A stretch of 61,952 nucleotides of DNA from a virus. A program made the position numbers and the translations under genes. Positions 1 through 61,952 of the stretch are shown piece by piece. The notes beneath the pieces are model-generated. The model was not told where the DNA came from. It ran no database searches and saw nothing but the letters and a program-made list of their open reading frames with translations. Where the stretch lies: the IMG/VR virus record IMGVR_UViG_3300021960_000001, positions 1-61,952 of that record. The stretch is one strand, 5' to 3'. Numbering within the stretch: position 1 is the first letter of the stretch; every line of letters begins with the position of its first letter.

Positions 1-127
1 ACATTCCCTCAATAGATACGAGTCAGTTCTTAACTGCTGGAGATATTCCTTCAATAGATACGAGTCAGTTCTTAACTGCTGGAGATATTCCTTCAATAGA
101 TACGAGTCAGTTCTTAACTGCTGGAGA
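1..127. repeat. Terminal direct repeat, left copy
   Basis: Bases 1-127 are identical to 61826-61952. The reading frame of the gene at 61471 continues perfectly through the join, so the genome is circular as assembled (about 61,825 unique bp). The length of exactly 127 equals a commonly used maximum assembly k-mer, so this is probably an assembly overlap and not a packaged terminal repeat (inference). Confidence 0.9.
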
Positions 128-167
128 TATTCCTTCAATAGATACGAGTCAGTTCTTAACTGCTGGA
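1..167 (+). repeat. 42-bp tandem repeat array, four copies
   Basis: Four head-to-tail 42-bp units lie here. The first (through 41) differs by two bases (gacattccc versus gatattcct); copies 42-83, 84-125 and 126-167 are identical. There are no spacers between units. The array is in frame and encodes the 14-aa repeat DIPSIDTSQFLTAG. It is cut by the contig ends. Confidence 0.95.
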
Positions 168-1175
168 GACTTACCTTCATTTAATATAGATGATTACAGA
201 GATGATTTTCTTTCTATAGCCAGAGAGGGTGTAGATATTCCTGAGTTTGAGCAACCAGATTTATCAGGATTTGCCAGAATAGAAGACATACCTAGTTTTG
301 ATTTCGACCAAGATTTATTCAGAGACCAACTATTTGATGATATAACAGGAAGTATTAATATTCCAAAACCTCCTCCTGTGTTTGATGAAGACGCATTTAG
401 AGATAATTTATTTGAAGATATTATGGGTAATATTCCTCAACCTCCACAACCACCTCAACCACCTGCGTTCAACGAAGATGAGTTAAGAGAAAGTATCTAT
501 AATGATATTATCGGTGATTTGCCTGGATTGTTTGAAGATTTTGATTTTCCTATTCCTGGGGTTCCTGGAGACTTACCTCCTATGACTCCTCCAACAGATA
601 TTCCTGGAGGAGGTAATCCATATGAAGGTATTTTTGGTCCAGGACAAGGAATGTTTCCTCCTATAAATTTCCCTCCTGGATTTTTTGATGGTATTGGTTT
701 TCCACCAGACGATGGAGGAGGATTGCCGCCGTTTCTTCCACCAATCACCCCTCCGAACGACCCAATTACTCCACCACCTCCCGTGGACAACAAACCAACA
801 GGTCCTATAAATCCGTACACAGGTCAACCAATCAGTAATCCTTATACACCGTACTCAACAGAGAGCGGAGCAACACCATTAAGGAAAGCAATAAGTCCTA
901 GGGATTTTGGTCAAGCTCCTGGATTTGAACGTCCTATAGGAGGTCCTCCTGTTAAACCAATAGACCCACCAAGAAAAGTACCTCCTAAACCACCTTCGAT
1001 TGGAGGAATAGGTGGTGGTGGAAGAGTCTATCTAGACGATGAACTAAGATTACCGCCCCCAGAAGATATTCGCAGATTAAAAGGTGGTGGAGGTATTTCT
1101 ATGTTGCCGATGAACGGACAAGGTGATACACTAACAACACAGGTATTCCAAAGCGGATTCCGACCAAGGAGATAA
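1..1175 (+). CDS. Repeat-containing virion-type protein, C-terminal part (gene wraps from 61471)
   Basis: The frame is open from base 3 to the stop at 1175 and continues the gene that starts at 61471; joined across the circular junction it encodes about 509 aa. The left end holds identical 14-aa repeats (DIPSIDTSQFLTAG). These are followed by degenerate acidic repeats such as FDEDAFRDNLFEDI, then a Pro/Gly-rich region, and a C-terminus with the pattern GGGGISMLPMNGQGDTLTTQ. It has no recognisable enzyme domain. Its place directly after the large internal-virion-like protein suggests a virion component; that is inference. Confidence 0.75.
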   Translation, partial: IPSIDTSQFLTAGDIPSIDTSQFLTAGDIPSIDTSQFLTAGDIPSIDTSQFLTAGDLPSFNIDDYRDDFLSIAREGVDIPEFEQPDLSGFARIEDIPSFDFDQDLFRDQLFDDITGSINIPKPPPVFDEDAFRDNLFEDIMGNIPQPPQPPQPPAFNEDELRESIYNDIIGDLPGLFEDFDFPIPGVPGDLPPMTPPTDIPGGGNPYEGIFGPGQGMFPPINFPPGFFDGIGFPPDDGGGLPPFLPPITPPNDPITPPPPVDNKPTGPINPYTGQPISNPYTPYSTESGATPLRKAISPRDFGQAPGFERPIGGPPVKPIDPPRKVPPKPPSIGGIGGGGRVYLDDELRLPPPEDIRRLKGGGGISMLPMNGQGDTLTTQVFQSGFRPRR

Positions 1176-5300: not shown

Positions 5301-6824
5301 ATGTCGTTAGCAAAAGAGTTTGCTGTACGCTATGCAGGACTACGTCAAGCGTATGGAACTTTTACAGCTAACAATGAAACTAGGGAAGATGGAAAGGCAA
5401 GTGGTAAAAACATTACTATTTCTAAAGAACTATCAGATAGTGATTTATTAAAGTTATGGGAAGACCACTTGTCTGGTCATCAAAGCGTAGGTATTGTAGC
5501 GATAGATGAACACAATAAGTGTGTCTGGGGAGCCATAGACGTTGACGAGTATCAGCTAGATTTAAAAGATTTAGCAATTAAAATAGCGAAGCAAGAATTA
5601 CCATTAGTCCTTTGCCGTAGTAAAAGTGGTGGAGCACATATTTATATCTTTTTGACCGAGCCAGTATCGGCTTCCATGCTTCAAAGAAAACTTAGACAGA
5701 TTGCAGCAGCTATCGGTTATGGTCAAGTAGAGATTTTTCCTAAACAAACAAAACTATTATTAGATAGAGGAGATAGAGGCAGTACATTAAATATGCCTTA
5801 CTTTGGTGGAGAAAACTCCACTAGATACGCTTATGATAAAAAAGGAGCAGCAATGACTCCTGAAGAATTTTTAAACTATGCTAAAGAAATAGAACTAACA
5901 CCCAATGAATTAGAAAAACTAGAAGCTAGTCCTTTAAATGAAACAATGGACTGGTTAGACCAAGCACCTCCGTGTATACAACACTTAGTAGTACAAGGCT
6001 TTCCTAAAGGCTCACGTAACTCAGGACTGTTTAATGTAGGAGTTTTCCTAAGGAAGAAGTTTCCTGATGATTGGGAACGCAGATTAGAAGATGTTAATAT
6101 AAAGTTCATGCAACCTCCATTAGGTGCACAAGAAGTATTAACCGTTGCTAAACAGCTACAAAGAAAAGACTACTTTTATAAATGTAATGACCAACCTATA
6201 GCGAGCCATTGTAATAGTCCTTTATGTAGAACTCGTAAGTTTGGTATAGGTGCCAACGGTGGCACACCTTTATTCAGTAACCTTACAAAACAGGATAGCG
6301 ACCCACCTATATGGTTTTTAGATGTTGAAGGCGGTAGACTAGAGTTAGAAACAGACGACTTGTTAAATCAAAACAGATTTCAACGTAAGTGTATGGACGC
6401 TCTTAACAAGATACCACCTAAGGTAAAAGAAAACGTCTGGAATCAGATTATACAGCAGTTATTAGACGCTATAACAATAGTAGAGGTTCCTAAAGAAAGT
6501 TCTACAGAAGGTTATTTTATGGAACTTTTAGAAGCTTTCTGTACAGAAAGACCCGCTAGAGAACGTGATGAACTGTTGTTGCATAAGCCATGGACTAATA
6601 ACGGTAAAACATATTTTAGGCTTATGGATTTAATGGATTATTTACATAGGAATAATTTCAAAGAATATCAAAGAAACAAGCTAACTTCTAAGTTAAAACA
6701 GCTTCATGGAGAGCCATACTTTTTTAACATTAAAGGCAAAGGTGTAAACGTTTGGTTTATAGAGGAGTTTAAAGCACAGGACGAGCCTCATGACTTGCCT
6801 GAATTTAACGATAATTTATTATGA
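5301..6824 (+). CDS. Archaeo-eukaryotic-type (AEP/PrimPol) DNA primase
   Basis: 507 aa. The N-terminal catalytic module shows WGAIDVDEY (metal-binding D-x-D), CRSKSGGAHIYIFL (S-x-H nucleotide-binding motif) and VEIFPKQ, in the order expected of the AEP superfamily, within residues about 70-150. A cysteine/histidine cluster follows near residue 300 (C..HC..C) and then a helical C-terminus. There is no fused helicase. It primes DNA synthesis for the family A polymerase encoded at 13174. Stop and next start overlap by 4 bp (ATGA). Confidence 0.88.
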   Translation: MSLAKEFAVRYAGLRQAYGTFTANNETREDGKASGKNITISKELSDSDLLKLWEDHLSGHQSVGIVAIDEHNKCVWGAIDVDEYQLDLKDLAIKIAKQELPLVLCRSKSGGAHIYIFLTEPVSASMLQRKLRQIAAAIGYGQVEIFPKQTKLLLDRGDRGSTLNMPYFGGENSTRYAYDKKGAAMTPEEFLNYAKEIELTPNELEKLEASPLNETMDWLDQAPPCIQHLVVQGFPKGSRNSGLFNVGVFLRKKFPDDWERRLEDVNIKFMQPPLGAQEVLTVAKQLQRKDYFYKCNDQPIASHCNSPLCRTRKFGIGANGGTPLFSNLTKQDSDPPIWFLDVEGGRLELETDDLLNQNRFQRKCMDALNKIPPKVKENVWNQIIQQLLDAITIVEVPKESSTEGYFMELLEAFCTERPARERDELLLHKPWTNNGKTYFRLMDLMDYLHRNNFKEYQRNKLTSKLKQLHGEPYFFNIKGKGVNVWFIEEFKAQDEPHDLPEFNDNLL

Positions 6825-7411
6825 TAGTTTATATTAAAAAACATTTTAAAAACGCTAATCCTGGAATCGAGTACAACCAATGGGACGAGCCTAGAGAAAG
6901 AGAGTTCAATGGCTCTATGGTAAAAGGAAGAAAAACAAAAGGCTTCGGCAGTTCTTCTTTCAACTACGCAGGAAAACTTTATGAACCAACGCCATGGACT
7001 AAAGCTATGTACGATATAAAACAACAGGCGGAAAGATTGGTATGGGAAGAACTAGAAGTAGATAAACAGTTTACGTTTTGTCTATGTGGTTATTACGGTA
7101 TCGATGGCAAAGGTATACCACACCACTCGGACACAGTACCGACACTAGACGACATAGTTGTCTCTATATCTTTAGGTGCACCAAGAGTATTTGTACAAAG
7201 AACATACCAGAATGAAGTAAAGAAACACACCAATACTAGTGAAATAGAAACAAAAATAGAAAACTTTGTGATAGATGAAAAACATTACATATTAGAACAC
7301 GGAGACGTACTGATATTTGATGGTCGTAACCAAATGACTTCTACTCATGCTGTACCTAGTTTAGAGTCAGCAGGAGAAAGAATCAATTTAACTTTCAGGA
7401 GTGGTCTATGA
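6821..7411 (+). CDS. AlkB-like 2-oxoglutarate/Fe(II) dioxygenase
   Basis: 196 aa with the full AlkB-type active site. H102-S-D104 and H176 are the iron ligands; RINLTFR (R187, R193) binds 2-oxoglutarate. DDIVVSISLGAPR and HGDVLIFDG are the usual flanking strands. Known family members remove alkyl groups from DNA/RNA bases by oxidation. Located between primase and helicase, it probably repairs or modifies phage DNA. It overlaps both neighbours by 4 bp. Confidence 0.9.
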   Translation: MIVYIKKHFKNANPGIEYNQWDEPREREFNGSMVKGRKTKGFGSSSFNYAGKLYEPTPWTKAMYDIKQQAERLVWEELEVDKQFTFCLCGYYGIDGKGIPHHSDTVPTLDDIVVSISLGAPRVFVQRTYQNEVKKHTNTSEIETKIENFVIDEKHYILEHGDVLIFDGRNQMTSTHAVPSLESAGERINLTFRSGL

Positions 7412-39062: not shown

Positions 39063-42000
39063 ATGGCAAGTACATACGTAAATGACTTAAGACTTAACGA
39101 GATGGCTACTGGGGATGCTAGTGGTACATGGGGCGAAGTTACAAACACAAACTTAGAATTAATTGCTGAAGCTTTTAGTTATGGCACAGAAGCTATAACA
39201 ACTAATGCTGACACACATACAACAACTATAGCAGACGGAGCAACCGACCCTGGAAGGTCAATGTACCTTAAATATACAGGTACTTTAGATTCAGCCTGTA
39301 CTATTACCATCGGTCCTAACACCGTTAGTAAAATGTGGTTTATTGAAAACGCTACTAGCGGTTCTCAAAATATAGTAATTTCTCAAGGTAGTGGAGCTAA
39401 TATCACTATTCCTGCAGGAGACGTAAAAGTAGTTTACTCAGACGGAGCAGGAAGTGGAGCAGCAGTCGTTGACGCTTTTGCTAGTCTTAATGTTGTAGAT
39501 TTAAAAGTACAAGATGATTTAACCGTAACTGACGATATGACTGTTGGCGGTACTTTAGGTGTTACAGGAGTTTTAACAGCTACCTCACTAGACATCTCAG
39601 GCGATATAGACGTAGACGGAACTACTAACTTAGACGTAGTAGATATAGATGGAGCTGTAGATATGGCTTCTACTCTACAAGTAGATGGAGCTATTACAGG
39701 TTCAAGCACAATCAATGGCGTAGGTATTTCTTCTAATATTACAAACTTTTCTGAAAGTATATTAATTAGTAATGATGCTGGTACAGGTACTTTATCTAGT
39801 GCTAGTAGTAACACAGGTTTAGGTTTTGAAGTTTTTAATGTCTTAACAACAGGTGATAACAATACTGGTATTGGAAGAAAAGCATTAACCGACACAACAA
39901 CTGGGAGTAGCAATACTGCTTTAGGACAAAATGCTTTAGCAGAAAATACTACAGCTAGTAACAACACAGCTGCAGGTAAAAGTGCATTACAAAATAACAC
40001 TACTGGTGCTTCAAATTCTAGTGTTGGTGCTTCTTCTTTAACAACAAACTCCACAGGTTCTAATAACACCGCTGTAGGTTTTGAAAGTTTAAAAGCAAAC
40101 ACAACAGCAGACAACAACACAGGAATTGGTTATCACGCTTTACTAGCAAACACTACAGCAACACAAAATACAGCAGTCGGTGCAAGTGCTTTAGCAGCTA
40201 ACACCACTGGTGCTAATAATACAGGAATTGGTACAAATACTTTATTTGATAACACTACTGGTGCAGAAAATACTGCTTTAGGTGTAGGTGCTTTAGCAAA
40301 TAATACTACAGCGAGTAATAATACTGCTGTTGGTAGGGCAGCTTTAGTAGGAAACACTACAGGTAGTAACAATTCTGTAATAGGCTCTACAGCAGCAGAT
40401 GCTTTAACAACAGGTAGTTATAATGTTGCTTTAGGCTTTGCAGCTTTGGGTTCAGATACGCAAGGAAGTTTATCAGTTGCTATTGGACCATCTGCATTGT
40501 TAAATCAAAACTTTACATCAGCTACTGATGCTTACAATGTAGCGGTTGGAACTAATGCAGGTCTATCAGTAACCACAGGTGTTCAAAATACCCTCATTGG
40601 TGGTCTAGCAGGTGATGCTATTACTACAGCAAGTAATAATTCAGTATTAGGTTGGTCAGCTTTAACAGCAAACACAACTGGTGCTCAAAATGTAGCAGTA
40701 GGTACAACAAGTTTATTCTCAAACACCACAGGTTCAACAAATACAGCTTTAGGCGATGCTGCTTTAAAAGAAAATACAACAGCCAGTAACAATACTGCTG
40801 TTGGTAAAGATGCTTTAAGGGCAAATACCACAGGTGCAGGTAATACATCAGTCGGTATGGATTCATTAAAAGCAAACACCACAGGTGCTGGGAATCAGGC
40901 TTTTGGTAAAGATGCTTTATTTGCAAACACTACAGGTAGTCTTAACTCAGCATATGGTGCTGGTGCATTACAGGCTAACACTACTGCTAGTAATAACACA
41001 GGTGTTGGTTACTTATCTTTAGGAGCAAACACTACAGGTGCTGAAAACGTAGCAGTAGGTGCAAATGCTTTAGATGCAAATACTACAGGAGGTGGAAATG
41101 TTGGTATTGGTGTTAATTCTTTAGGAGCTTTAACAACTGGTGCAGGTAACACAGCTATTGGTGATGATTCAGTAGCTAGTGGTGTTGTAACAGGTAACTA
41201 TAATACTGCTTTAGGTAATTCAGCATTAGATGCACTTACTTCAGGTACATTGAATGTTGCTATAGGTAGATTATCATTAGCAGCGAATACTTCAGGTGTT
41301 AATAACGTGGCAGCTGGTGCTTCTTCTTTAGATGCTAATACAACAGGTAATGCAAATGTTGCTATTGGGCATTTCAGCTTAACATCAAACACAACTGCTA
41401 GTAACAATGTGGCTGTCGGTGGTGATTCAATGCAACAAAATACCACAGGTGCTAATAACGTAGCGGTTGGTACAGATGCACTTAAAGCAAACACTACAGG
41501 TGATTCTAATACAGCAGTTGGTGGTGCATCACTAGATGCTAACACTACAGGTGCTAATAATGTAGCAGTAGGTTATGCTTCTTTAGGGTCAAACACTACT
41601 GCTTCTAATAACACAGCAGTTGGAGTCGGTGCTATGGACTCTAACACCACAGGAACTAGTAATGTTGCTTTAGGTGCAAATGCCCTAGACGCTAACACCA
41701 CAGCATCAAACAGTACAGCAGTTGGTTTTGATGCTTTAACAACAAACACTACAGGTGCTGCAAATACAGCTATAGGTAATGTAGCATTACAAGCAAACAC
41801 AACAGGAAATTATAATTCTGCTCTTGGTTCAGGTGCTTTGCTTTCTAATACAACAGGAAGTAACAATGTAGCGGTTGGTCTGAACTCTTCAGTATTAAGC
41901 ACTACAGGTAATTTTAATACTTCTGTGGGTGCTTTTTCTTTAGATTCAAACACAACTGGTTCATCTAATACTGCTGTAGGTGAAGGTAGTCTTGGTAATG

Positions 42001-43031
42001 CTACTACAGCTTCTAACAACACAGCAGTTGGTGCTAATGCTTTGGTAGCAAACACTACAGGTAGTTCAAGTGTAGCTGTTGGTAGTAATGCATTAGCAAG
42101 TCAAACAACTGCTTCTGGTAATACAGCTATTGGTGCAAATTCTGCTGACGCTATAACAACAGGAATACACAACACAGCTGTAGGTTCAGGTGCCGCAGGT
42201 AGTTGCACGACAGGAACTAATAACACAGCAGTTGGTTATATAGCTCATTTAACAAACACTACAGGTGCTAGTAATACAATTATTGGTCATAGTGCTGGAG
42301 CAGCCTTTACTACAGCTAACAACAACACAGCAATTGGTAAAGATTCTATGCAAGTAGGTACAACTGCTGGTGAAAATACTGCTGTTGGTTATAGGTCTAT
42401 GAATGATATAACAACTGGTGGAGAAAATTCTGCTCTTGGTGATGAAGCAGGTGGAAGTATAACTACAGGTATTCAAAATGTTTTTGTAGGACAAAGAGCA
42501 GGTAATTATCTAACAGCAACTACTACTGGTAATTACAACACTTATCTTGGTATGGCAATTCAGGCTAGTCATCCAGCATCAGAAAATGAAATAGTAATTG
42601 GACGTATACAGGCAGGTAAAGGTAATCAAACTGCTATGATTGGTGGTACTAGTGGAGCTTATAACGGAGCCAACTCATCTACATGGTCAACAACTTCTGA
42701 TAGAAGAATTAAAAAGAATATAGAAGATAACAATACTGGTCTTGATGCTATAAAAGATATTAAAGTTAGAAACTTTGAATATAGAACTGAAGATGAAATT
42801 ACAGATTTTGAAAATCCAGCTTCAGCAGTTGTTCATAAAGAAGGCATACAACTAGGAGTTATAGCTCAAGAAATAGAAACAATTTTACCTGATATGGTTA
42901 TTACACAATCAACAGGTGTAAAAGCTGTAAACCCTGATAACCTTACATGGTACTTGGTAAACGCAGTAAAAGAACTGTCTACAACAGTAGATGAATTAAA
43001 ACAAGAGTTAAAAACTCTAAAAGGAGAATAA
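39063..43031 (+). CDS. Long tail fibre with 17-aa repeats and S74 self-cleaving domain
   Basis: 1322 aa. The N-terminal ~200 residues form the virion-binding part. From about residue 262 to 1146 there are some fifty 17-aa repeats of the type NTT(A/G)xNNTAVGxxALxx, like the heads of trimeric YadA-type adhesins. The C-terminal ~111 residues are an intramolecular chaperone of peptidase family S74: TSDRRIKKNIEDN (cleavage Ser1212, with K1217/K1218), then GVIAQEIETILPDMV. It should trimerise, cut itself and bind the host surface. Confidence 0.93.
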   Translation: MASTYVNDLRLNEMATGDASGTWGEVTNTNLELIAEAFSYGTEAITTNADTHTTTIADGATDPGRSMYLKYTGTLDSACTITIGPNTVSKMWFIENATSGSQNIVISQGSGANITIPAGDVKVVYSDGAGSGAAVVDAFASLNVVDLKVQDDLTVTDDMTVGGTLGVTGVLTATSLDISGDIDVDGTTNLDVVDIDGAVDMASTLQVDGAITGSSTINGVGISSNITNFSESILISNDAGTGTLSSASSNTGLGFEVFNVLTTGDNNTGIGRKALTDTTTGSSNTALGQNALAENTTASNNTAAGKSALQNNTTGASNSSVGASSLTTNSTGSNNTAVGFESLKANTTADNNTGIGYHALLANTTATQNTAVGASALAANTTGANNTGIGTNTLFDNTTGAENTALGVGALANNTTASNNTAVGRAALVGNTTGSNNSVIGSTAADALTTGSYNVALGFAALGSDTQGSLSVAIGPSALLNQNFTSATDAYNVAVGTNAGLSVTTGVQNTLIGGLAGDAITTASNNSVLGWSALTANTTGAQNVAVGTTSLFSNTTGSTNTALGDAALKENTTASNNTAVGKDALRANTTGAGNTSVGMDSLKANTTGAGNQAFGKDALFANTTGSLNSAYGAGALQANTTASNNTGVGYLSLGANTTGAENVAVGANALDANTTGGGNVGIGVNSLGALTTGAGNTAIGDDSVASGVVTGNYNTALGNSALDALTSGTLNVAIGRLSLAANTSGVNNVAAGASSLDANTTGNANVAIGHFSLTSNTTASNNVAVGGDSMQQNTTGANNVAVGTDALKANTTGDSNTAVGGASLDANTTGANNVAVGYASLGSNTTASNNTAVGVGAMDSNTTGTSNVALGANALDANTTASNSTAVGFDALTTNTTGAANTAIGNVALQANTTGNYNSALGSGALLSNTTGSNNVAVGLNSSVLSTTGNFNTSVGAFSLDSNTTGSSNTAVGEGSLGNATTASNNTAVGANALVANTTGSSSVAVGSNALASQTTASGNTAIGANSADAITTGIHNTAVGSGAAGSCTTGTNNTAVGYIAHLTNTTGASNTIIGHSAGAAFTTANNNTAIGKDSMQVGTTAGENTAVGYRSMNDITTGGENSALGDEAGGSITTGIQNVFVGQRAGNYLTATTTGNYNTYLGMAIQASHPASENEIVIGRIQAGKGNQTAMIGGTSGAYNGANSSTWSTTSDRRIKKNIEDNNTGLDAIKDIKVRNFEYRTEDEITDFENPASAVVHKEGIQLGVIAQEIETILPDMVITQSTGVKAVNPDNLTWYLVNAVKELSTTVDELKQELKTLKGE
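39850..42500 (+). repeat. 51-bp degenerate coding repeats in the fibre gene
   Basis: About fifty imperfect 51-bp units encoding the 17-aa pattern NTTxxNNTAVGxxALxx. The units differ in many silent positions, so the array is old or is diversified by recombination. The repeats also create long spurious open frames on the minus strand. Confidence 0.85.
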
Positions 43032-45815: not shown

Positions 45816-46141
45816 TGTCTAAGCTATTAGAAACGAAACTTCCTGTAGCTACAGGACCTCTCGACCCTGCAATATTTAATCGTTTAGTTAGAATATTAGA
45901 ATTAAGTTTAAATAAAGTAAACGTAGGCTCTACTGTAAATATTAATGAGTCTCAAAGAAATATAAACCAGTTTAATACAGGAGATATTGTTTGGAATTTA
46001 TCTACTAAACAACTTCAATTATGGACAGGAGAACAATGGTCAGATATTTATTCAGGAACAGAAAAAGGAGTTCAGGGAGTAGCCTCTCTGGGAAAAGTAA
46101 GTGTGTCAACGGGTGGAGACACAACAGTAAAAATATTGTAA
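45815..46141 (+). CDS. Small tail-associated protein, 108 aa
   Basis: GPLDPAIFNRLVRILELSLN, then NTGDIVWNLSTKQLQLWTGE and GVASLGKVSVSTGGDTTVKI. Gene order after the gp10-like protein suggests a tail accessory; function unknown. Confidence 0.65.
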   Translation: MSKLLETKLPVATGPLDPAIFNRLVRILELSLNKVNVGSTVNINESQRNINQFNTGDIVWNLSTKQLQLWTGEQWSDIYSGTEKGVQGVASLGKVSVSTGGDTTVKIL

Positions 46142-46152
46142 AAGGTGAGACT

Positions 46153-46593
46153 ATGAATTTAAAAAAGCTACAAGAAGAATTAACTTTCGATGAAGGGTGT
46201 ATCGATAAAATATACTTAGACCATCTAGGGTACCCTACTTTTGGAATAGGTCATTTAATACTAGAAACAGACCCCGAACACGGACAAGACGTGGACACGC
46301 CTGTTTCTAAAGAAAGAATCGATGAATGTTTTGAAAAAGATATACAAAACGTTATAAACGATTTAAACAGAAACTTGGTTTGGTGGAAAGACTTACCTGA
46401 AGATTTACAAAGAGTCATGGCTAATATGTGTTTTAATTTAGGCATAACAAGATTATTGAAATTTAAAAATTTTTTAGCAGCTATGGAAAAAGAAGATTGG
46501 GATAAAGCAGCGGTTGAAATGTTAGACAGTCGTTGGGCTATACAAGTGGGTCCTAGAGCGATAAGATTGAAAGATAGAGTTTTAGGAGCCTAG
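46153..46593 (+). CDS. T4-type lysozyme (glycoside hydrolase 24)
   Basis: 146 aa from the ATG at 46153 (AAAGGTGAGACT upstream); the longer frame from 46021 overlaps the previous gene and is not needed. The catalytic triad Glu14, Asp23, Thr29 lies in LTFDEGCIDKIYLDHLGYPT, followed by FGIGHLI, as in T4 lysozyme. No signal peptide, so it needs a holin (candidates at 43579 and 43734). It degrades peptidoglycan at lysis. Confidence 0.93.
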   Translation: MNLKKLQEELTFDEGCIDKIYLDHLGYPTFGIGHLILETDPEHGQDVDTPVSKERIDECFEKDIQNVINDLNRNLVWWKDLPEDLQRVMANMCFNLGITRLLKFKNFLAAMEKEDWDKAAVEMLDSRWAIQVGPRAIRLKDRVLGA

Positions 46594-46750: not shown

Positions 46751-46948
46751 ATGCCCGCAAAAAAGAAAACACATAAAACTAAAGACGGCAGAACTGCTAA
46801 AAAAGGTCTTTATTACAATATAAATAAAAAACGTAAAGAAGGAAAAAAGATGCGTAAAAAAGGAGCCAAAGGTGCTCCTACAGCAGCTGCTTTTAAACGT
46901 TCTGCTAAAACAGCTAAGAAGCCTAAGAAGAAAAGTAAAAAGAAATAA
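46751..46948 (+). CDS. Lys-rich protein, 65 aa
   Basis: Extremely basic (AKKGLYYNINKKRKEGKKMR; C-terminal KKPKKKSKKK). Histone-tail-like composition; could condense DNA or be packaged. TAATG link to the next gene. Function unknown. Confidence 0.65.
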   Translation: MPAKKKTHKTKDGRTAKKGLYYNINKKRKEGKKMRKKGAKGAPTAAAFKRSAKTAKKPKKKSKKK

Positions 46949-47241
46949 TGCCTAGGAAAAAGGAAAAATCTATAAGACGTACTACTGGTAAAGGCGGTAA
47001 TTACCGTAAAACTAAATCAGGTGCAGGCATGACTAAAAAAGGTATTGCAGCATATAAAAGAAAAAACCCAGGGTCTAAACTTAAAGGGGCTGTCACAGGT
47101 AAAGTTAAAAAAGGAAGTAAAGCAGCAAAAAGGAGAAAGTCTTACTGTGCTAGAAGTGCAGGACAAATGAAAAAGTTTCCTAAAGCGGCTAAAAATCCTA
47201 ATTCAAGATTACGTCAAGCACGTAAAAGGTGGAAATGTTAA
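46948..47241 (+). CDS. Conserved basic protein, 97 aa
   Basis: GMTKKGIAAYKRKNPGSKLK, KRRKSYCARSAGQMKK and NSRLRQARKRWKC form a conserved-looking pattern, resembling a small basic phage family of unknown function (I recall it as DUF6321-like, unverified). Third of the basic trio; two cysteines could bind metal. Confidence 0.65.
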   Translation: MPRKKEKSIRRTTGKGGNYRKTKSGAGMTKKGIAAYKRKNPGSKLKGAVTGKVKKGSKAAKRRKSYCARSAGQMKKFPKAAKNPNSRLRQARKRWKC

Positions 47242-48169: not shown

Positions 48170-48652
48170 ATGACACCTGAAGAAGAAAAAGACAAAATAA
48201 TCTGGGCTATTATGTTCATAGGGGCGGTTTTAATTATAGGTATTTTTGTACAAAACATTAAAGCAGACCAAATAGTTCATAAGTTTAAATCACCTAGTTT
48301 TAACGGCGTTGGTACATCATCTCATTACCTAACTATAGAAAACCAAGAGTTCAGCCGTAAGCTGACTATTAAAGAAGAAATTAAAGCCTTGCAAGATGAA
48401 ATAGAAAGAGAAAAAGAAAATTCCACTCTTGCTAGATTCATGAGAAATCTTGAATCACGTGTCTATGCTGAACTATCTAGACAATTAGTTAACAACCTCT
48501 TTGGAGAAACACCTTCTGATTCAGGTACAATAGAACTAGAAGGAAACATTATTGAGTACACAAGCGATGGTGTTACATTAACGTTAAAAATTACGGAAGC
48601 AGATGGAACAGTTACTGAAATTACAATTCCTATTGGTACTTTTACTTTCTAG
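48170..48652 (+). CDS. csgF: CsgF-like curli secretion accessory protein
   Basis: 160 aa. N-terminal membrane/signal segment (residues about 9-30), then IVHKFKSPSFNGVG, which matches the mature N-terminus of CsgF (F-x-x-P-x-F-x-G), the part that plugs into CsgG in E. coli. The middle has an inserted charged helix, and the end EGNIIEYTSDGVTLTLKITE fits the CsgF C-terminal domain. GAGACGTAA ribosome-binding site. In E. coli CsgF sits at the CsgG pore exit. Confidence 0.85.
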   Translation: MTPEEEKDKIIWAIMFIGAVLIIGIFVQNIKADQIVHKFKSPSFNGVGTSSHYLTIENQEFSRKLTIKEEIKALQDEIEREKENSTLARFMRNLESRVYAELSRQLVNNLFGETPSDSGTIELEGNIIEYTSDGVTLTLKITEADGTVTEITIPIGTFTF

Positions 48653-49439
48653 CTGTTCTACGTTAGACCAAGTTGAAGATACGTACGAACATAGGTTTCA
48701 AAGACACAATGTAGTAAATATACAAGATTTACAATCCATTGATTTACGTGATGTTTCTGTTCCTAAAGTAAGTCCTGTTGTAGCTGTATATCCTTCAGCT
48801 TTTACTGACCAAACAGGACAAAGAAAAAGCAATAGTGAGTTTGCTTTATTTAGTACAGCCATCACCCAACAGCCTAATGCATTGCTTATAAGAGCACTTA
48901 AACACGCAGGAAACGGTAATTTCTTTAGGGTTGTAGAACGTGTGGGGCTAGATAATTTAACAAAAGAAAGACAACTTATACGGTCAGCTAGAGAACAATT
49001 TGCTAGTGATGAAGAAAAGAAAAAACAATTAGCACCGTTATTGTTTGCAGGTGTTTTGCTAGAAGGTGCTGTTATTAGTTATGAAGCTAATTTAGAATCA
49101 GGAGGTATCGGTGCTCGTTATCTTGGTATTGGCAATAGCGTGCAATACAGAGAGGATAATATAACAGTTAGCCTTAGGATGGTTTCTGTAGCAACAGGCG
49201 AGGTGTTATTAGAAGTATTGAGTCAGAAAACTATATTCAGCTATGGTAAATCTAATGATGTATTTAGGTTTATAGAAATGAATACTGAACTTGTAGAAAT
49301 AGAAGCAGGTAACGCAAGAAACGAGTCTTCTACTATTGCTTTAATGAAAGCTATTGAAGGCGGGGTATTAGAGATAATTAAGTTAGGTTACAAAAAAGGT
49401 TACTGGGTTTTACAAATAGAAGAAAAAACGGTAGAATGA
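48603..49439 (+). CDS. csgG: CsgG-like curli secretion pore lipoprotein
   Basis: 278 aa, the family's usual length. Lipoprotein signal FLLVLLLSSC with Cys18. Hallmarks of CsgG: VVAVYPSAFTDQTGQ, NALLIRALKHAGNGNFFRVV, ERQLIRSARE, EGAVISYEANLESGGIGARY, then LGIG, VATGEVLLEV and FRFIEM. In E. coli CsgG forms a nine-subunit outer-membrane channel. The constriction Phe56 is kept (F83), but Asn55 aligns with Leu82 and Tyr51 with a non-Tyr residue (alignment by eye). The first 50 bp overlap csgF. Confidence 0.93.
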   Translation: MEQLLKLQFLLVLLLSSCSTLDQVEDTYEHRFQRHNVVNIQDLQSIDLRDVSVPKVSPVVAVYPSAFTDQTGQRKSNSEFALFSTAITQQPNALLIRALKHAGNGNFFRVVERVGLDNLTKERQLIRSAREQFASDEEKKKQLAPLLFAGVLLEGAVISYEANLESGGIGARYLGIGNSVQYREDNITVSLRMVSVATGEVLLEVLSQKTIFSYGKSNDVFRFIEMNTELVEIEAGNARNESSTIALMKAIEGGVLEIIKLGYKKGYWVLQIEEKTVE

Positions 49440-49443
49440 AATT

Positions 49444-50175
49444 ATGATGATGAACAGATACATACAATTATTGCTGTGTTTTGTTTTATTACCGTTATAC
49501 GCTGCGGACAATGAAATTTATGTAGACCAGTCAGGTACTGGGGCTAACATAGATTTAGAACAGCTTGGTATATCTAATATTATTGGTGGGTTAGGTTCTT
49601 CTGCAGGTGATTTAACTGCTTTTGATTTAGACGGAAATACCATGACGCTAGACATTAATATGATTGGTGCTACTAATAAATTTCTTGGTGATATATACGC
49701 TGACAACTTTACAGGTGTATATAACTTTACGGGCGGTACAAATTCTTTTACGATTCAGGTAGACCCTACAAACGCTAATAGTTCAGACGGCTCTAATCAA
49801 AACGTAGCTGTTACTGGCAGTGGTAATACCTTTACATTAAATCAAGGAACATCAGCTATAGCTGCATCACTAGATTTAGATTGGATTATTCAAGGCTCTA
49901 ATAACACAGTAACATCTAATATTAATATTGATGGTGCTACTAACTATATGGATATAGATGGTTCTGATAATACAGTTACTTATACAGGTACGGGTGTGAA
50001 CGCATCAGCAGGTGGATATTTTTATTTAGACCACACAGGCGGTTCAAGAACTTTTAATATTCAACAACTGAGTACCCAAGATAATGACTGGCTCAAAATT
50101 ATGTCAATCTCTGGCACTTCTGCTTCTACTGTTTGTGTCGTTCAAAACGACCAAGGTACAAGCACAAGCTGTTGA
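49444..50175 (+). CDS. Secreted beta-rich protein, curlin-like candidate substrate
   Basis: 243 aa. Signal peptide YIQLLLCFVLLPLYAADNEI with likely cleavage after YA. Mature protein is Asn/Gly/Ser/Thr/Asp-rich with beta-solenoid-like elements: EIYVDQSGTGANIDLEQLG, SGNTFTLNQGTSA, SNNTVTSNINIDG, SDNTVTYTG. IYVDQSG and Asn-rich turns recall curlin repeats, but the classical S-x5-QxGxGNxA-x3-Q repeat is not clear. C-terminus has two Cys. Position between csgG and fecR suggests it is the exported cargo. Confidence 0.6.
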   Translation: MMMNRYIQLLLCFVLLPLYAADNEIYVDQSGTGANIDLEQLGISNIIGGLGSSAGDLTAFDLDGNTMTLDINMIGATNKFLGDIYADNFTGVYNFTGGTNSFTIQVDPTNANSSDGSNQNVAVTGSGNTFTLNQGTSAIAASLDLDWIIQGSNNTVTSNINIDGATNYMDIDGSDNTVTYTGTGVNASAGGYFYLDHTGGSRTFNIQQLSTQDNDWLKIMSISGTSASTVCVVQNDQGTSTSC

Positions 50176-51205
50176 CATTGGAGACATTTCTGAGCTAAAT
50201 GGTTCAGCACAAATAGTAAGAGACAAGCCATACGACGTTAACGTAAAATTTGCTATACAAAGTAATGACGAAGCTATTACTAAAGATGGTAGAATGGCTA
50301 TTACTTTTTTAGATGAGTCTGTAGTAAAATTAACTGAACACTCGCAACTACTTATCGATGAATATATTTATGACCCTGACCCAAGCAAATCTAAAATGGC
50401 TCTTACCTTTGGTCTTGGGACAGCACGGTTTATTACTGGTAATTTAAACCGCATAGATAAACAAAATATTACTCTTAAAACTCCTACAGCCAATATAGCA
50501 ATAAGAGGTACAGACTTTACAGCTACAGTAGATGAACTAGGTCGTAGTCTTATAATATTATTGCCAGATGCTTCAGGTTTATCTAGTGGTGAAATAGAAG
50601 TGGTTACGGCTATGGGTACGGTACTTTTAAATAAACCATATCAAGCTACAACTGTTAGCGTTTTTGAGTCACCTCCAAGCAAACCAGTTATTTTAGATTT
50701 AACGTTAGATATTATTGATAATATGTTAATAGTTACTCCACCTAAAGAAGAAGAACGTGTAGAAGAAGAAACCACAACTGTTCAAACAGACAGTGTTTTA
50801 GATTTTAACGATTTAGATATTGATTACTTAGCAGAAGATTACTTATCAGAGGACGAACTAGATTTTACAGAACTCGATATTAATTTTCTAGATGTAAATT
50901 ATCTTGAAGACCTTCTTAATGTATTAGACGCATTAGCCATAGCAGAAGATGAAGACGCTTTAGCCCAAGCCACAAGCACACAAATATCTGGAACTCTTTT
51001 AGGTAAAGACCCAGACACCCAAATAACTGCCTTAATAACAGGCAACGTTATTAGTTTACGAAGACAAGTAAACGAAAGCGTAAGAGTAGATTTGAACGGT
51101 AGTGATGCGTATACTGTAATTTTGATACAAGACGGAGTATCTAATATAATCAAGGTGAATGGAGGAAGCGATAGTGTTATAACTATTACGCAAAATGATG
51201 GATGA
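50084..51205 (+). CDS. Periplasmic FecR-domain protein
   Basis: 373 aa. Signal peptide SLALLLLLFVSFKTTKVQAQ is encoded in the 92-bp overlap with the upstream gene. FecR domain at about residues 30-190: GDISELNGSAQIVRDKPYDV, GRMAITFLDESVVKLTEHSQ, LGTARFITG, PTANIAIRGTDFTATVD. The C-terminal half is acidic with LDFNDLDIDYLAEDYLSEDE and similar repeats. In bacteria FecR-domain proteins are often paired with CHASE2 cyclases, as here; it may sense or bind a periplasmic partner. ATGA overlap with the cyclase. Confidence 0.82.
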   Translation: MTGSKLCQSLALLLLLFVSFKTTKVQAQAVDIGDISELNGSAQIVRDKPYDVNVKFAIQSNDEAITKDGRMAITFLDESVVKLTEHSQLLIDEYIYDPDPSKSKMALTFGLGTARFITGNLNRIDKQNITLKTPTANIAIRGTDFTATVDELGRSLIILLPDASGLSSGEIEVVTAMGTVLLNKPYQATTVSVFESPPSKPVILDLTLDIIDNMLIVTPPKEEERVEEETTTVQTDSVLDFNDLDIDYLAEDYLSEDELDFTELDINFLDVNYLEDLLNVLDALAIAEDEDALAQATSTQISGTLLGKDPDTQITALITGNVISLRRQVNESVRVDLNGSDAYTVILIQDGVSNIIKVNGGSDSVITITQNDG

Positions 51206-52938
51206 AAAAACTTTTTATACTACCCCTACTATTAATTCTTGCACTGCCGTTAGTGTTTCAATCAACACCCACAGAAATATTAAAACTTAAAGTATTTGAT
51301 ACGTTTATAAAACACCAAGAACCTTCTGGTAATTTTGTTATTCTTAATATTACAGAAGAAGACGTTGAACGTGAAGGTGGCTATCCTTTACCTAGAAAAA
51401 GATTAGCGGATATACAACTAGAGTTATTAGGTAAAGGTGCTCTTGGTGTTGGTTGGGTCATAAGTTTTCCACAGCCTGATAGACTTATGGGCGATGAAGA
51501 TTTTGCTAGGTCTTTAGGATATGCTCCTAGTGTTCTAGCAATGTTTGAAACAAATAGTGGTCAATATCCTAAAACCACAGGAACTGTTATAAAAGGCAAT
51601 GATACTGGTGGTATACTTACAACGGGAGTCAAGGAAAATTTCTACACCTATCAAAATATATTACAAGGAATCGCCAGTGCTCCCACCGAAGTAGACCAAC
51701 TAGTTAGACGAGTTCCTTTACTATTACGAACACCTGACGGTTGGGTAGCTTCTTTTGGCACACAAATATATAAAGCCTTGTTTGGTGTAAAAAGCTACAT
51801 CATAACTACAAACGAAAACGGTATACAAGAAATAGCTATACGAGGTATACCGCCTGTCAAAACAGATAGTCTTGGTCGTAAGTGGATTAGTTGGGTAGAT
51901 ACACCAGAAACTAATTTAAAAGAAATGGATGTAAACGGTAAGTTTGTGTTTGTAGGTGTAACCGCTAACGGCGTTATGCCGCAGGTTGCTACACCAGTTG
52001 GTTTACTAGAACCGCATAAAATACAAGCAGCACTAGCAGAGTCTCTTTTAATTCAAAATAGTCCTTTTATACCAGATTACGCCCTAGCTTTAGAACTACT
52101 TATTTTCATAGCGTCTGTAGGGCTCGTATGGGCTTTTATAAGCTATTTAGGTATAACGTGGGGCGTAAGCTTAGCTTTACTTACGATGGCTTTAACGGGC
52201 TTCTACGGTTATTACAGCATAACTACAGGTGTTTTAATAGATATTACGTGGTCTTTAGTTTCTCAGTTTATCACAGGAGCCATAGCTTTTTATTTAAGAT
52301 TTAGAGAACAATATAAATTAAGGCAACAAATTAAAAAGCAGTTTGAACATTACTTAGACCCACGACAAGTTAAACGTTTACAAAAAGACCCTAGCTTATT
52401 AAAACTAGGAGGAGAAAAAAGAAGATGTACTTTCTTGTTCACAGACGTTAGAGGATTTACAGCTTTATCAGAAACGTTACCTCCTGAAGAAGTAACAACA
52501 ATAATGAATAAAGCATTAACTATACAATCAGAAGCAGTGCAAAAATATGGTGGCATGGTAGATAAGTATATTGGAGATGCAATGATGGCTATCTTTAATG
52601 CACCTATGGATTTACTACACCACGAAAGCATAGCAGTAGAATGTGCTAAAGAAATACAAGAAAATATAATAAAAGCCGATATTGGTGTTGAGATTGGAGT
52701 AGGTGTAAATACAGGCGAAGCTGTTATAGGCAACATGGGTAGTGATACTAGATTTGATTATTCAGCTATAGGAGACGCTGTAAACACCGCTGCTAGACTA
52801 GAATCAGCGACTAAAGAAGCGGGTGTAAACATACTTATAGGCAAAGAAACAGAAAAATATTCAGGCATAACTTTGAAACCGCTAAAACCAATAAAAGTAA
52901 AAGGTAAAGAAAAACCTTTAAAAATATACACTTTTTGA
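51202..52938 (+). CDS. CHASE2-domain adenylate cyclase (class III)
   Basis: 578 aa. One N-terminal membrane helix, a periplasmic CHASE2 sensor (about residues 25-290; ILNITEEDVEREGGYPLPRK), three membrane helices (about 292-385), then a class III cyclase domain: LFTDVRGFTALSE (D415), VDKYIGDAMMAIFN (D459) and YSAIGDAVNTAARLE (D525, N528, R532). All catalytic metal and transition-state residues are present; Asp525 suggests ATP rather than GTP. It should make cAMP in response to a periplasmic signal. Confidence 0.92.
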   Translation: MKKLFILPLLLILALPLVFQSTPTEILKLKVFDTFIKHQEPSGNFVILNITEEDVEREGGYPLPRKRLADIQLELLGKGALGVGWVISFPQPDRLMGDEDFARSLGYAPSVLAMFETNSGQYPKTTGTVIKGNDTGGILTTGVKENFYTYQNILQGIASAPTEVDQLVRRVPLLLRTPDGWVASFGTQIYKALFGVKSYIITTNENGIQEIAIRGIPPVKTDSLGRKWISWVDTPETNLKEMDVNGKFVFVGVTANGVMPQVATPVGLLEPHKIQAALAESLLIQNSPFIPDYALALELLIFIASVGLVWAFISYLGITWGVSLALLTMALTGFYGYYSITTGVLIDITWSLVSQFITGAIAFYLRFREQYKLRQQIKKQFEHYLDPRQVKRLQKDPSLLKLGGEKRRCTFLFTDVRGFTALSETLPPEEVTTIMNKALTIQSEAVQKYGGMVDKYIGDAMMAIFNAPMDLLHHESIAVECAKEIQENIIKADIGVEIGVGVNTGEAVIGNMGSDTRFDYSAIGDAVNTAARLESATKEAGVNILIGKETEKYSGITLKPLKPIKVKGKEKPLKIYTF

Positions 52939-61471: not shown

Positions 61472-61952
61472 TGGCTACAAGAATGACAGGCAGAGAATCA
61501 TTGATGAGACAAGGTTTAATAAATGACCCTTTTACACAAGCACTAGAATCTATTAATTTAAGAAAAGACGCAAACGATTCTATAAACAATGCCAGTGACC
61601 AATACGAAGCTGATGTTGCAGATTTTAAAAACACCCAAGCTAATGAATTTGAACAAGGGTTAGCGGGACTGTTGGATAGAGTAGGTGCTTTAGAAAATAC
61701 ACCAACACCTAGTTTTAATATGCCAGACTTATCTGGATTCGCTACTCTCGAAGACTTAAACCAAGGTATCGGAGGTATTAATATTCCTGGTGCACCCGAC
61801 CTTAGTGGCTACGCTAGGCTAGAGGACATTCCCTCAATAGATACGAGTCAGTTCTTAACTGCTGGAGATATTCCTTCAATAGATACGAGTCAGTTCTTAA
61901 CTGCTGGAGATATTCCTTCAATAGATACGAGTCAGTTCTTAACTGCTGGAGA
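61471..61952 (+). CDS. Repeat-containing virion-type protein, N-terminal part (continues at 1)
   Basis: ATG at 61471 overlaps the previous stop (TAATG). The product starts MATRMTGRESLMRQGLINDP, then a helical segment, then PDLSGFATLEDLNQGIGGIN and PDLSGYARLEDIPSIDTSQF. The window ends in the tandem array; the frame continues without break at base 1 to the stop at 1175 (about 509 aa in all). It is the last of the large internal-virion-type genes before the 1178 gene. Confidence 0.75.
   Translation, partial: MATRMTGRESLMRQGLINDPFTQALESINLRKDANDSINNASDQYEADVADFKNTQANEFEQGLAGLLDRVGALENTPTPSFNMPDLSGFATLEDLNQGIGGINIPGAPDLSGYARLEDIPSIDTSQFLTAGDIPSIDTSQFLTAGDIPSIDTSQFLTAG
61825..61952 (+). repeat. 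Tandem repeat array and right copy of terminal direct repeat
   Basis: 61826-61952 equals 1-127. It contains three of the 42-bp units (one variant, two identical) and ends just inside the next. It marks circular closure of the assembly within the repeat array. Confidence 0.92.

Follow-up and report, generated by a model that had tools for sequence, protein, structure and literature searches.

Why does a phage genome carry curli-secretion genes next to a FecR-domain protein and a cyclase, and what would these genes do together in the infected cell? The question is raised by IMG/VR record IMGVR_UViG_3300021960_000001, whose whole 61,952-nucleotide stretch was analysed and is called the window here. 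All five ORFs of the block were confirmed in the window ORF list, and all lie on the plus strand (Table 1). Curated Pfam cut-offs were exceeded by CsgF (5e-16), CsgG (5e-46), FecR (3e-9), CHASE2 (1e-23) and Guanylate_cyc (1e-19). The initial annotation had read the genes from the letters alone as CsgF-like, CsgG-like, a secreted beta-rich protein, a FecR-domain protein and a CHASE2-adenylate cyclase and had proposed profile searches for them. The Pfam, PDB and homolog matches agree with these identities, and the motifs it quoted (the Cys18 lipobox, GGIGARYLGIG, ERQLIRS and FKSPSFNG) are present in the translations. The block belongs to the type VIII secretion (curli) module described before in pelagiphages, and we consider it likely that it works in curli secretion.

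Table 1. Features of the module and its surroundings (window positions)
Feature	Position	Strand	Basis or remark
YvrJ-like small protein, 116 aa	47625..47975	+	N-terminal hydrophobic helix, coiled coil; constant first gene of the module
Clade-specific ORF, 61 aa	47975..48160	+	between YvrJ-like gene and csgF; 31 loci; absent from myophages
CsgF homolog, 160 aa, extracellular chaperone/pore partner	48170..48652	+	Pfam, phrog_35372
CsgG homolog, 278 aa, outer-membrane lipoprotein secretion channel	48603..49439	+	Pfam, PDB
Curlin (CsgA/B)-type fibre subunit, 243 aa, signal peptide	49444..50175	+	position, family homology
Secreted FecR-domain protein, 373 aa	50084..51205	+	Pfam FecR, TM scan, C-terminal motif
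CHASE2 sensor + class III adenylate cyclase domain, 578 aa	51202..52938	+	Pfam, PDB, catalytic residues
T4-type lysozyme/endolysin (context, outside the module)	46021..46593	+	Phage_lysozyme 2.8e-10 (Pfam); phrog_7 endolysin 2.2e-20

As to its kind, its gene order and the group of phages that carry it, the module has been described before. The genes csgF and csgG were reported in pelagimyophages in 2020 (PMC7029224), a lysis pore was proposed for Melnitz in 2022 (PMC9004378), and in 2022 the arrangement HK-csgF-csgG-csgA/B-fecR-(csgA/B)-AC was described in HTVC023P-type podophages and myophages together with its global distribution and transcripts (PMC9599517). The initial annotation was right that csgG and csgF had been reported in marine phages, and its remark that it knew of no combination with FecR and a cyclase has been superseded, since this combination is published (PMC9599517) and annotated in the Melnitz GenBank record. 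The window shares phage type, genes and order with the published module, that is, csgF-csgG-csgA/B-fecR(-AC) in a genome of the HTVC023P-type/pelagimyophage kind. It differs in lacking a second curlin and in having at the position of the published "HK" a YvrJ-like gene in which no kinase domain was detected. What we add is the YvrJ-like reading of "HK", a secreted FecR protein with a curlin-like end, a survey of FecR-CHASE2 pairing, and the near absence of a CRP-type cAMP receptor from SAR11-family genomes.

The same gene set is found in two cultured phages: the clusters of HTVC008M (KC465899) and Melnitz (MZ577097) contain two YvrJ-like genes, CsgF, CsgG, a curlin, a FecR-type protein and a cyclase. 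These phages differ from the carrier of the window in being myophages with a second curlin-repeat protein. In HTVC008M this protein (AGE60352; L002:5583-6908) has an N-terminal PA14 domain (2.7e-6) before three Curlin_rpt stretches (5e-8), and by its domain order it may be a curli subunit displaying a carbohydrate-binding domain. In Melnitz, the proteins at L003:4107-4826 and 5885-6901 both exceed the Curlin_rpt cut-off, which contradicts the published statement that Melnitz is without csgA/csgB (PMC9004378).

The carrier is, as judged by its genes, a podophage related to the HTVC023P-type pelagiphages. The closest TerL proteins were those of DSL-LC04 (58% identity), 023Pt_psg01 (57%), HTVC027P (54%) and HTVC023P (51.5%), and the window encodes a thymidylate synthase, which also fits clades V, VIII and IX of PMC9599517. 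From the TerL kinship and the thymidylate synthase we infer a SAR11 host. The record bears a 127-bp direct terminal repeat, so that the 61.9-kb window looks circular, and joining its ends gave a single open gene of 509 codons. The terminal repeat (window 1-169 and 61828-61952) is built of a 42-bp coding tandem unit, SIDTSQFLTAGDIP; since it lies within the array of this unit, closure could conceal a collapsed repeat, and it is not certain how many copies the junction has. A virion or tail-spike-like protein of 1322 aa with 51-bp repeats is encoded at 39063-43031. Between the lysozyme gene and the module, two small, very Lys/Arg-rich proteins (46751-46948 and 46948-47241, the second being DUF6321 at 2.4e-11) may be DNA-binding or packaged. 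Directly 3' of the cyclase, an ORF at 53131-53676 matches short tail fibre/adhesin PHROGs (2.6e-26), which places the module between the lysis and tail-fibre genes.

The genes of the module overlap by 50 bp (csgF/csgG), 92 bp (curlin/fecR) and 4 bp (fecR/cyclase), as had been said of them from the sequence. The initial annotation had described the block as having no promoter of its own; the promoter scan gave 28 sigma-70-like sites, a number at chance level (29.9 +/- 5.6 expected). The Rfam scan gave no match. A CsgG search of IMG/VR returned at least 557 confirmed relatives, and linkage was counted in the nearest 80 of them, so that the counts describe this segment of diversity plus the two myophages. 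In the contigs long enough to judge, the gene order was invariant among these 80 loci: csgF was in place in 68/68, curlin in 72/72, fecR in 65/65 and the cyclase in 58/58. This is the five-gene order that the initial annotation had proposed to seek in marine viral contigs. The csgF/csgG overlap of 50 bp was kept in 71 of 76 loci and the curlin/fecR overlap of 92 bp in 59 of 69. The median dN/dS was 0.08 for csgF, 0.09 for csgG, 0.10 for curlin, 0.10 for fecR, 0.15 for the cyclase and 0.15 for the YvrJ-like gene, which indicates purifying selection on all genes of the module. Nucleotide divergence is high: a megablast search with the 8.7-kb region had no match among phage records. The initial annotation was right to read the block as a cargo unit in a phage. 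Its limits were drawn too narrowly, as the YvrJ-like gene was also part of it wherever a relative allowed the check.

CsgF matched phrog_35372 at 9e-44 and can be aligned with CsgF of HTVC008M and Melnitz. CsgG matched the solved E. coli CsgG structures at 5e-44 in a PDB sequence search, is 51% identical to CsgG of HTVC008M, and has the lipobox LLSSC18. By sequence, the window thus has the CsgG-family lipoprotein channel and the CsgF partner of type VIII secretion. Bacterial curli systems (E. coli csgBAC/csgDEFG and the alphaproteobacterial csgF-csgG-curlin operons L109-L113) share CsgF, CsgG and curlin-type subunits with the phage module. E. coli curli also has the periplasmic gate CsgE, whereas there was no PF10627 match anywhere in the window; CsgE is accessory rather than essential (PMC7029224) and has been reported missing from the pelagiphage module (PMC9599517).

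The curlin ORF of the window has no Pfam match of its own over the cut-off and no Curlin_rpt match. It shares its position, and can be aligned, with HTVC008M and Melnitz proteins whose annotation reads curlin minor subunit or curlin-repeat protein, and Curlin_rpt was detected at E<=1 in 20 of 49 members of the family, the best at 8.6e-6 and the window member not among them. One N-terminal unit is clearly of the curlin type and the later units are degenerate; judged by inspection and comparison with CsgA, the stretch IYVDQSGTGANIDLEQLGISN is spaced like a curlin repeat. The predicted structure is all-beta (pLDDT 80), and a fold search with this model against the PDB found nothing at E<=0.001, the best hits, beta-helix proteins, being at 0.27. 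Rows from named phage records were left out of the alignments behind two structure predictions.

It is possible to imagine CsgG and CsgF working without any fibre, as an outer-membrane pore that times lysis (PMC9004378) or lets in larger molecules (PMC7029224). In the clade of the window the T4-type lysozyme lies just upstream, a small membrane protein of holin size precedes csgF, and with no CsgE gate found the pore might leak. However, the module of HTVC008M and Melnitz has no lysozyme adjoining it, the Melnitz module contains two Curlin_rpt proteins, and a bare pore leaves CsgF and the secreted FecR protein unexplained. Moreover, the curlin gene was kept beside csgG in all 72 loci and is under purifying selection. 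This weakens the pore-only or lysis role suggested in the initial annotation, and we regard such a role as improbable.

According to the published view, FecR is an iron-citrate regulator and the cyclase a cAMP switch, both controlling transcription of the curli genes (PMC9599517). The family names speak for this, as does the cAMP-dependent curli control in Gammaproteobacteria cited in the same paper. We analysed three parts of this wiring: the gene labelled histidine kinase, the FecR protein and the cyclase. In PMC9599517 the gene before csgF is labelled HK, "sometimes two". The YvrJ-like gene precedes csgF in all 64 IMG/VR loci with enough upstream sequence, and from its position and copy number it is probably this published "HK", no other gene being present at that position. 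It encodes 92-116 aa, single or in tandem, with a hydrophobic N-terminal helix, EVGFPIAAAGALGWFIYKLI, followed by a coiled coil. The HisKA and HATPase domains were absent among the Pfam matches of 20 homologs; YvrJ was matched weakly in 12 of the 20, at best at 0.008. The protein matched phrog_18771 (E=1.5e-16), a PHROG with no assigned function. The helix fails a simple hydropathy cut-off, and the protein is putatively a membrane one. Neither this gene nor the module was present in the fetched parts (about 50 kb each) of the HTVC023P-type phages 023Pt_psg01, HTVC023P and HTVC027P, so gene and module move together. These matches put the HK label in doubt, and not the membership of the gene in the module.

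In the FecR protein, a signal peptide starting at residue 1 is followed by a FecR domain (66-151), an Asp/Glu/Leu-rich middle and a curlin-like C-terminal unit (about 341-373). Pfam FecR was found in 43/43 homologs as the sole domain matched. A FecIR-type anti-sigma factor needs an N-terminal anti-sigma part in the cytoplasm, which a single TM helix connects to the FecR domain in the periplasm. In the protein of the window the TM scan detected no segment beyond the signal peptide, and there was no match to an anti-sigma domain. It follows that an iron anti-sigma regulator is unlikely. The C-terminal motif [ILVC]x[ILV]xQx(0-4)-end occurs in 60/60 distinct FecR proteins of the module, which, as the motif was defined after viewing these sequences and the proteins are related, stands for conservation and not for 60 independent events. 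It holds down to 30-37% identity (HTVC008M, Melnitz, L087 and L114). With the curlin and FecR families set aside, the strict form was present in about 3 of the remaining ORFs, which number about 1,030. A looser form of the pattern was found in 71 of 73 curlins and 2 of 56 cyclases, and in none of the CsgG, CsgF and other families tested. Using hhalign, we found that the FecR and curlin C-termini align end to end with P 0.006 and a low probability score; the AlphaFold model of FecR is of low confidence (pLDDT 49). The curlin-like nature of the unit is thus an argument from sequence.

The cyclase domain matched bacterial adenylate cyclases in the PDB down to 1e-29, and the class III residues D415, K455, D459, S521, N528 and R532 are intact in the window, comprising the two metal Asp, the substrate Lys and Ser, and the transition-state Asn and Arg. 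Among the 38 sequences compared, Asp415, Asp459, Lys455 and Arg532 are present in all and Asn528 in 35, and position 521 is Ser, Thr or Asp. The output of the enzyme is a different matter. Two of the 60 SAR11-family genomes scanned encode a protein with the cNMP-binding domain PF00027, in one case of CRP size, and the phage encodes none. With such a receptor lacking from the phage and from the other 58 genomes, reprogramming of host cAMP, one of the roles first proposed for the block, loses weight; by this count a CRP-based route is unlikely, an argument that stands only if the host is SAR11. Taken with the signal peptide of FecR and the absence of a kinase domain hit in "HK", the nearly complete lack of a CRP-type receptor makes transcriptional control of curli genes by FecR and the cyclase very improbable.

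Class III cyclases and CsgG both occur in the same two MAGs among the 60 SAR11-family genomes and share contigs there, and the contig of G003 (L090) also carries a phage terminase gene; for these reasons both are most likely binned phage contigs. In the Rhodobacteraceae bacterium Water_Bin34 MAG (L087, L114-L117), four contigs show YvrJ-csgF-csgG-curlin laid out as in the phages, and they are probably several different phages of one sample binned together. A host-derived assembly chimera or a recent inert passenger, to which the contigs in the two SAR11-family MAGs might point, has practically no chance and was rejected, as the block is conserved in at least 557 IMG/VR relatives and two cultured myophages under purifying selection. 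Neither of the refuting conditions named in the initial annotation, a lack of CsgG/CsgF profile hits or a chimera absent from related phages, applied.

Where, then, could the FecR protein and the cyclase have come from? FecR and cyclase are stated not to be part of bacterial curli operons (PMC9599517). In agreement with this, five csgF-csgG-curlin operons of Alphaproteobacteria had neither gene at a distance of up to about 9 kb. In this class CsgF is rare, exceeding the cut-off in 6 of 385 genomes, one of these with phage-type modules. A CsgG profile scan of genome contigs gave seven loci, most or all with the phage module layout; the true bacterial curli operons were located via CsgF and not via CsgG. 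The pairing of FecR with CHASE2 is found elsewhere: a FecR protein lies within 9 kb of 11 of 20 alphaproteobacterial CHASE2-cyclases, which were picked from the top matches on long contigs. RTX and/or cadherin/Ig/Calx-beta domains, which are typical of surface proteins, were present in 4 of 9 scanned FecR proteins from these loci. A FecR-CHASE2 kinase pair also belongs to the biofilm-regulating BiofilmReg operon of Burkholderia (PMC5192318). Like the phage module, these bacterial pairs combine an exported protein bearing a FecR domain with a CHASE2 sensor in the membrane. They differ from it in that the alphaproteobacterial pairs had no neighbouring curli genes and their FecR proteins lacked the curlin-like C-terminal motif, and in that the output of the Burkholderia pair is a histidine kinase. 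By its gene content, the phage module resembles a curli core to which a bacterial surface-protein-sensing pair has been added.

For the curli-secretion reading, which we prefer, the following course can be proposed. Late in infection, four products (CsgG, CsgF, curlin and FecR) would be exported by the Sec pathway. The curlin would be released through CsgG-CsgF and assemble into a fibre at the surface of the host, which itself is without curli. The FecR protein, its end imitating that of a curlin, would join secreted or stalled curlin; it would thus be a secreted partner of the fibre or of the sensor, in contrast to the iron regulator of PMC9599517. The CHASE2 domain of the cyclase would sense the state of FecR and curlin, and cAMP would be made. 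Taken alone, this step from FecR to CHASE2 is a tentative proposal, somewhat doubtful as it stands. The benefit may be one of those in the published hypotheses, namely superinfection exclusion, the keeping together or aggregation of sibling cells, or uptake; no clumping was seen with Melnitz (PMC9004378).

A more specific prediction, which we regard as rather unlikely in all its parts, is that the exported FecR protein is an end-piece of curli, its curlin-like terminal unit joining the fibre, nucleating it or capping it, and that its FecR domain reports the state of the fibre to the CHASE2 cyclase. Phages would then have built a self-monitoring amyloid secretion system from a bacterial curli core and an adhesin-sensing FecR-CHASE2-cyclase pair, and its cAMP receptor would be one not yet known in SAR11. 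Given the signal peptide of FecR, the absence of a kinase domain hit in "HK" and the near absence of a CRP-type receptor, the published wiring, with an iron regulator, a histidine kinase and a cAMP switch, would misdirect experiments. If the preferred curli-secretion reading is right, infected SAR11 cells, which are among the most abundant in the sea, would show a phage-encoded amyloid, something beyond the means of the host when uninfected.
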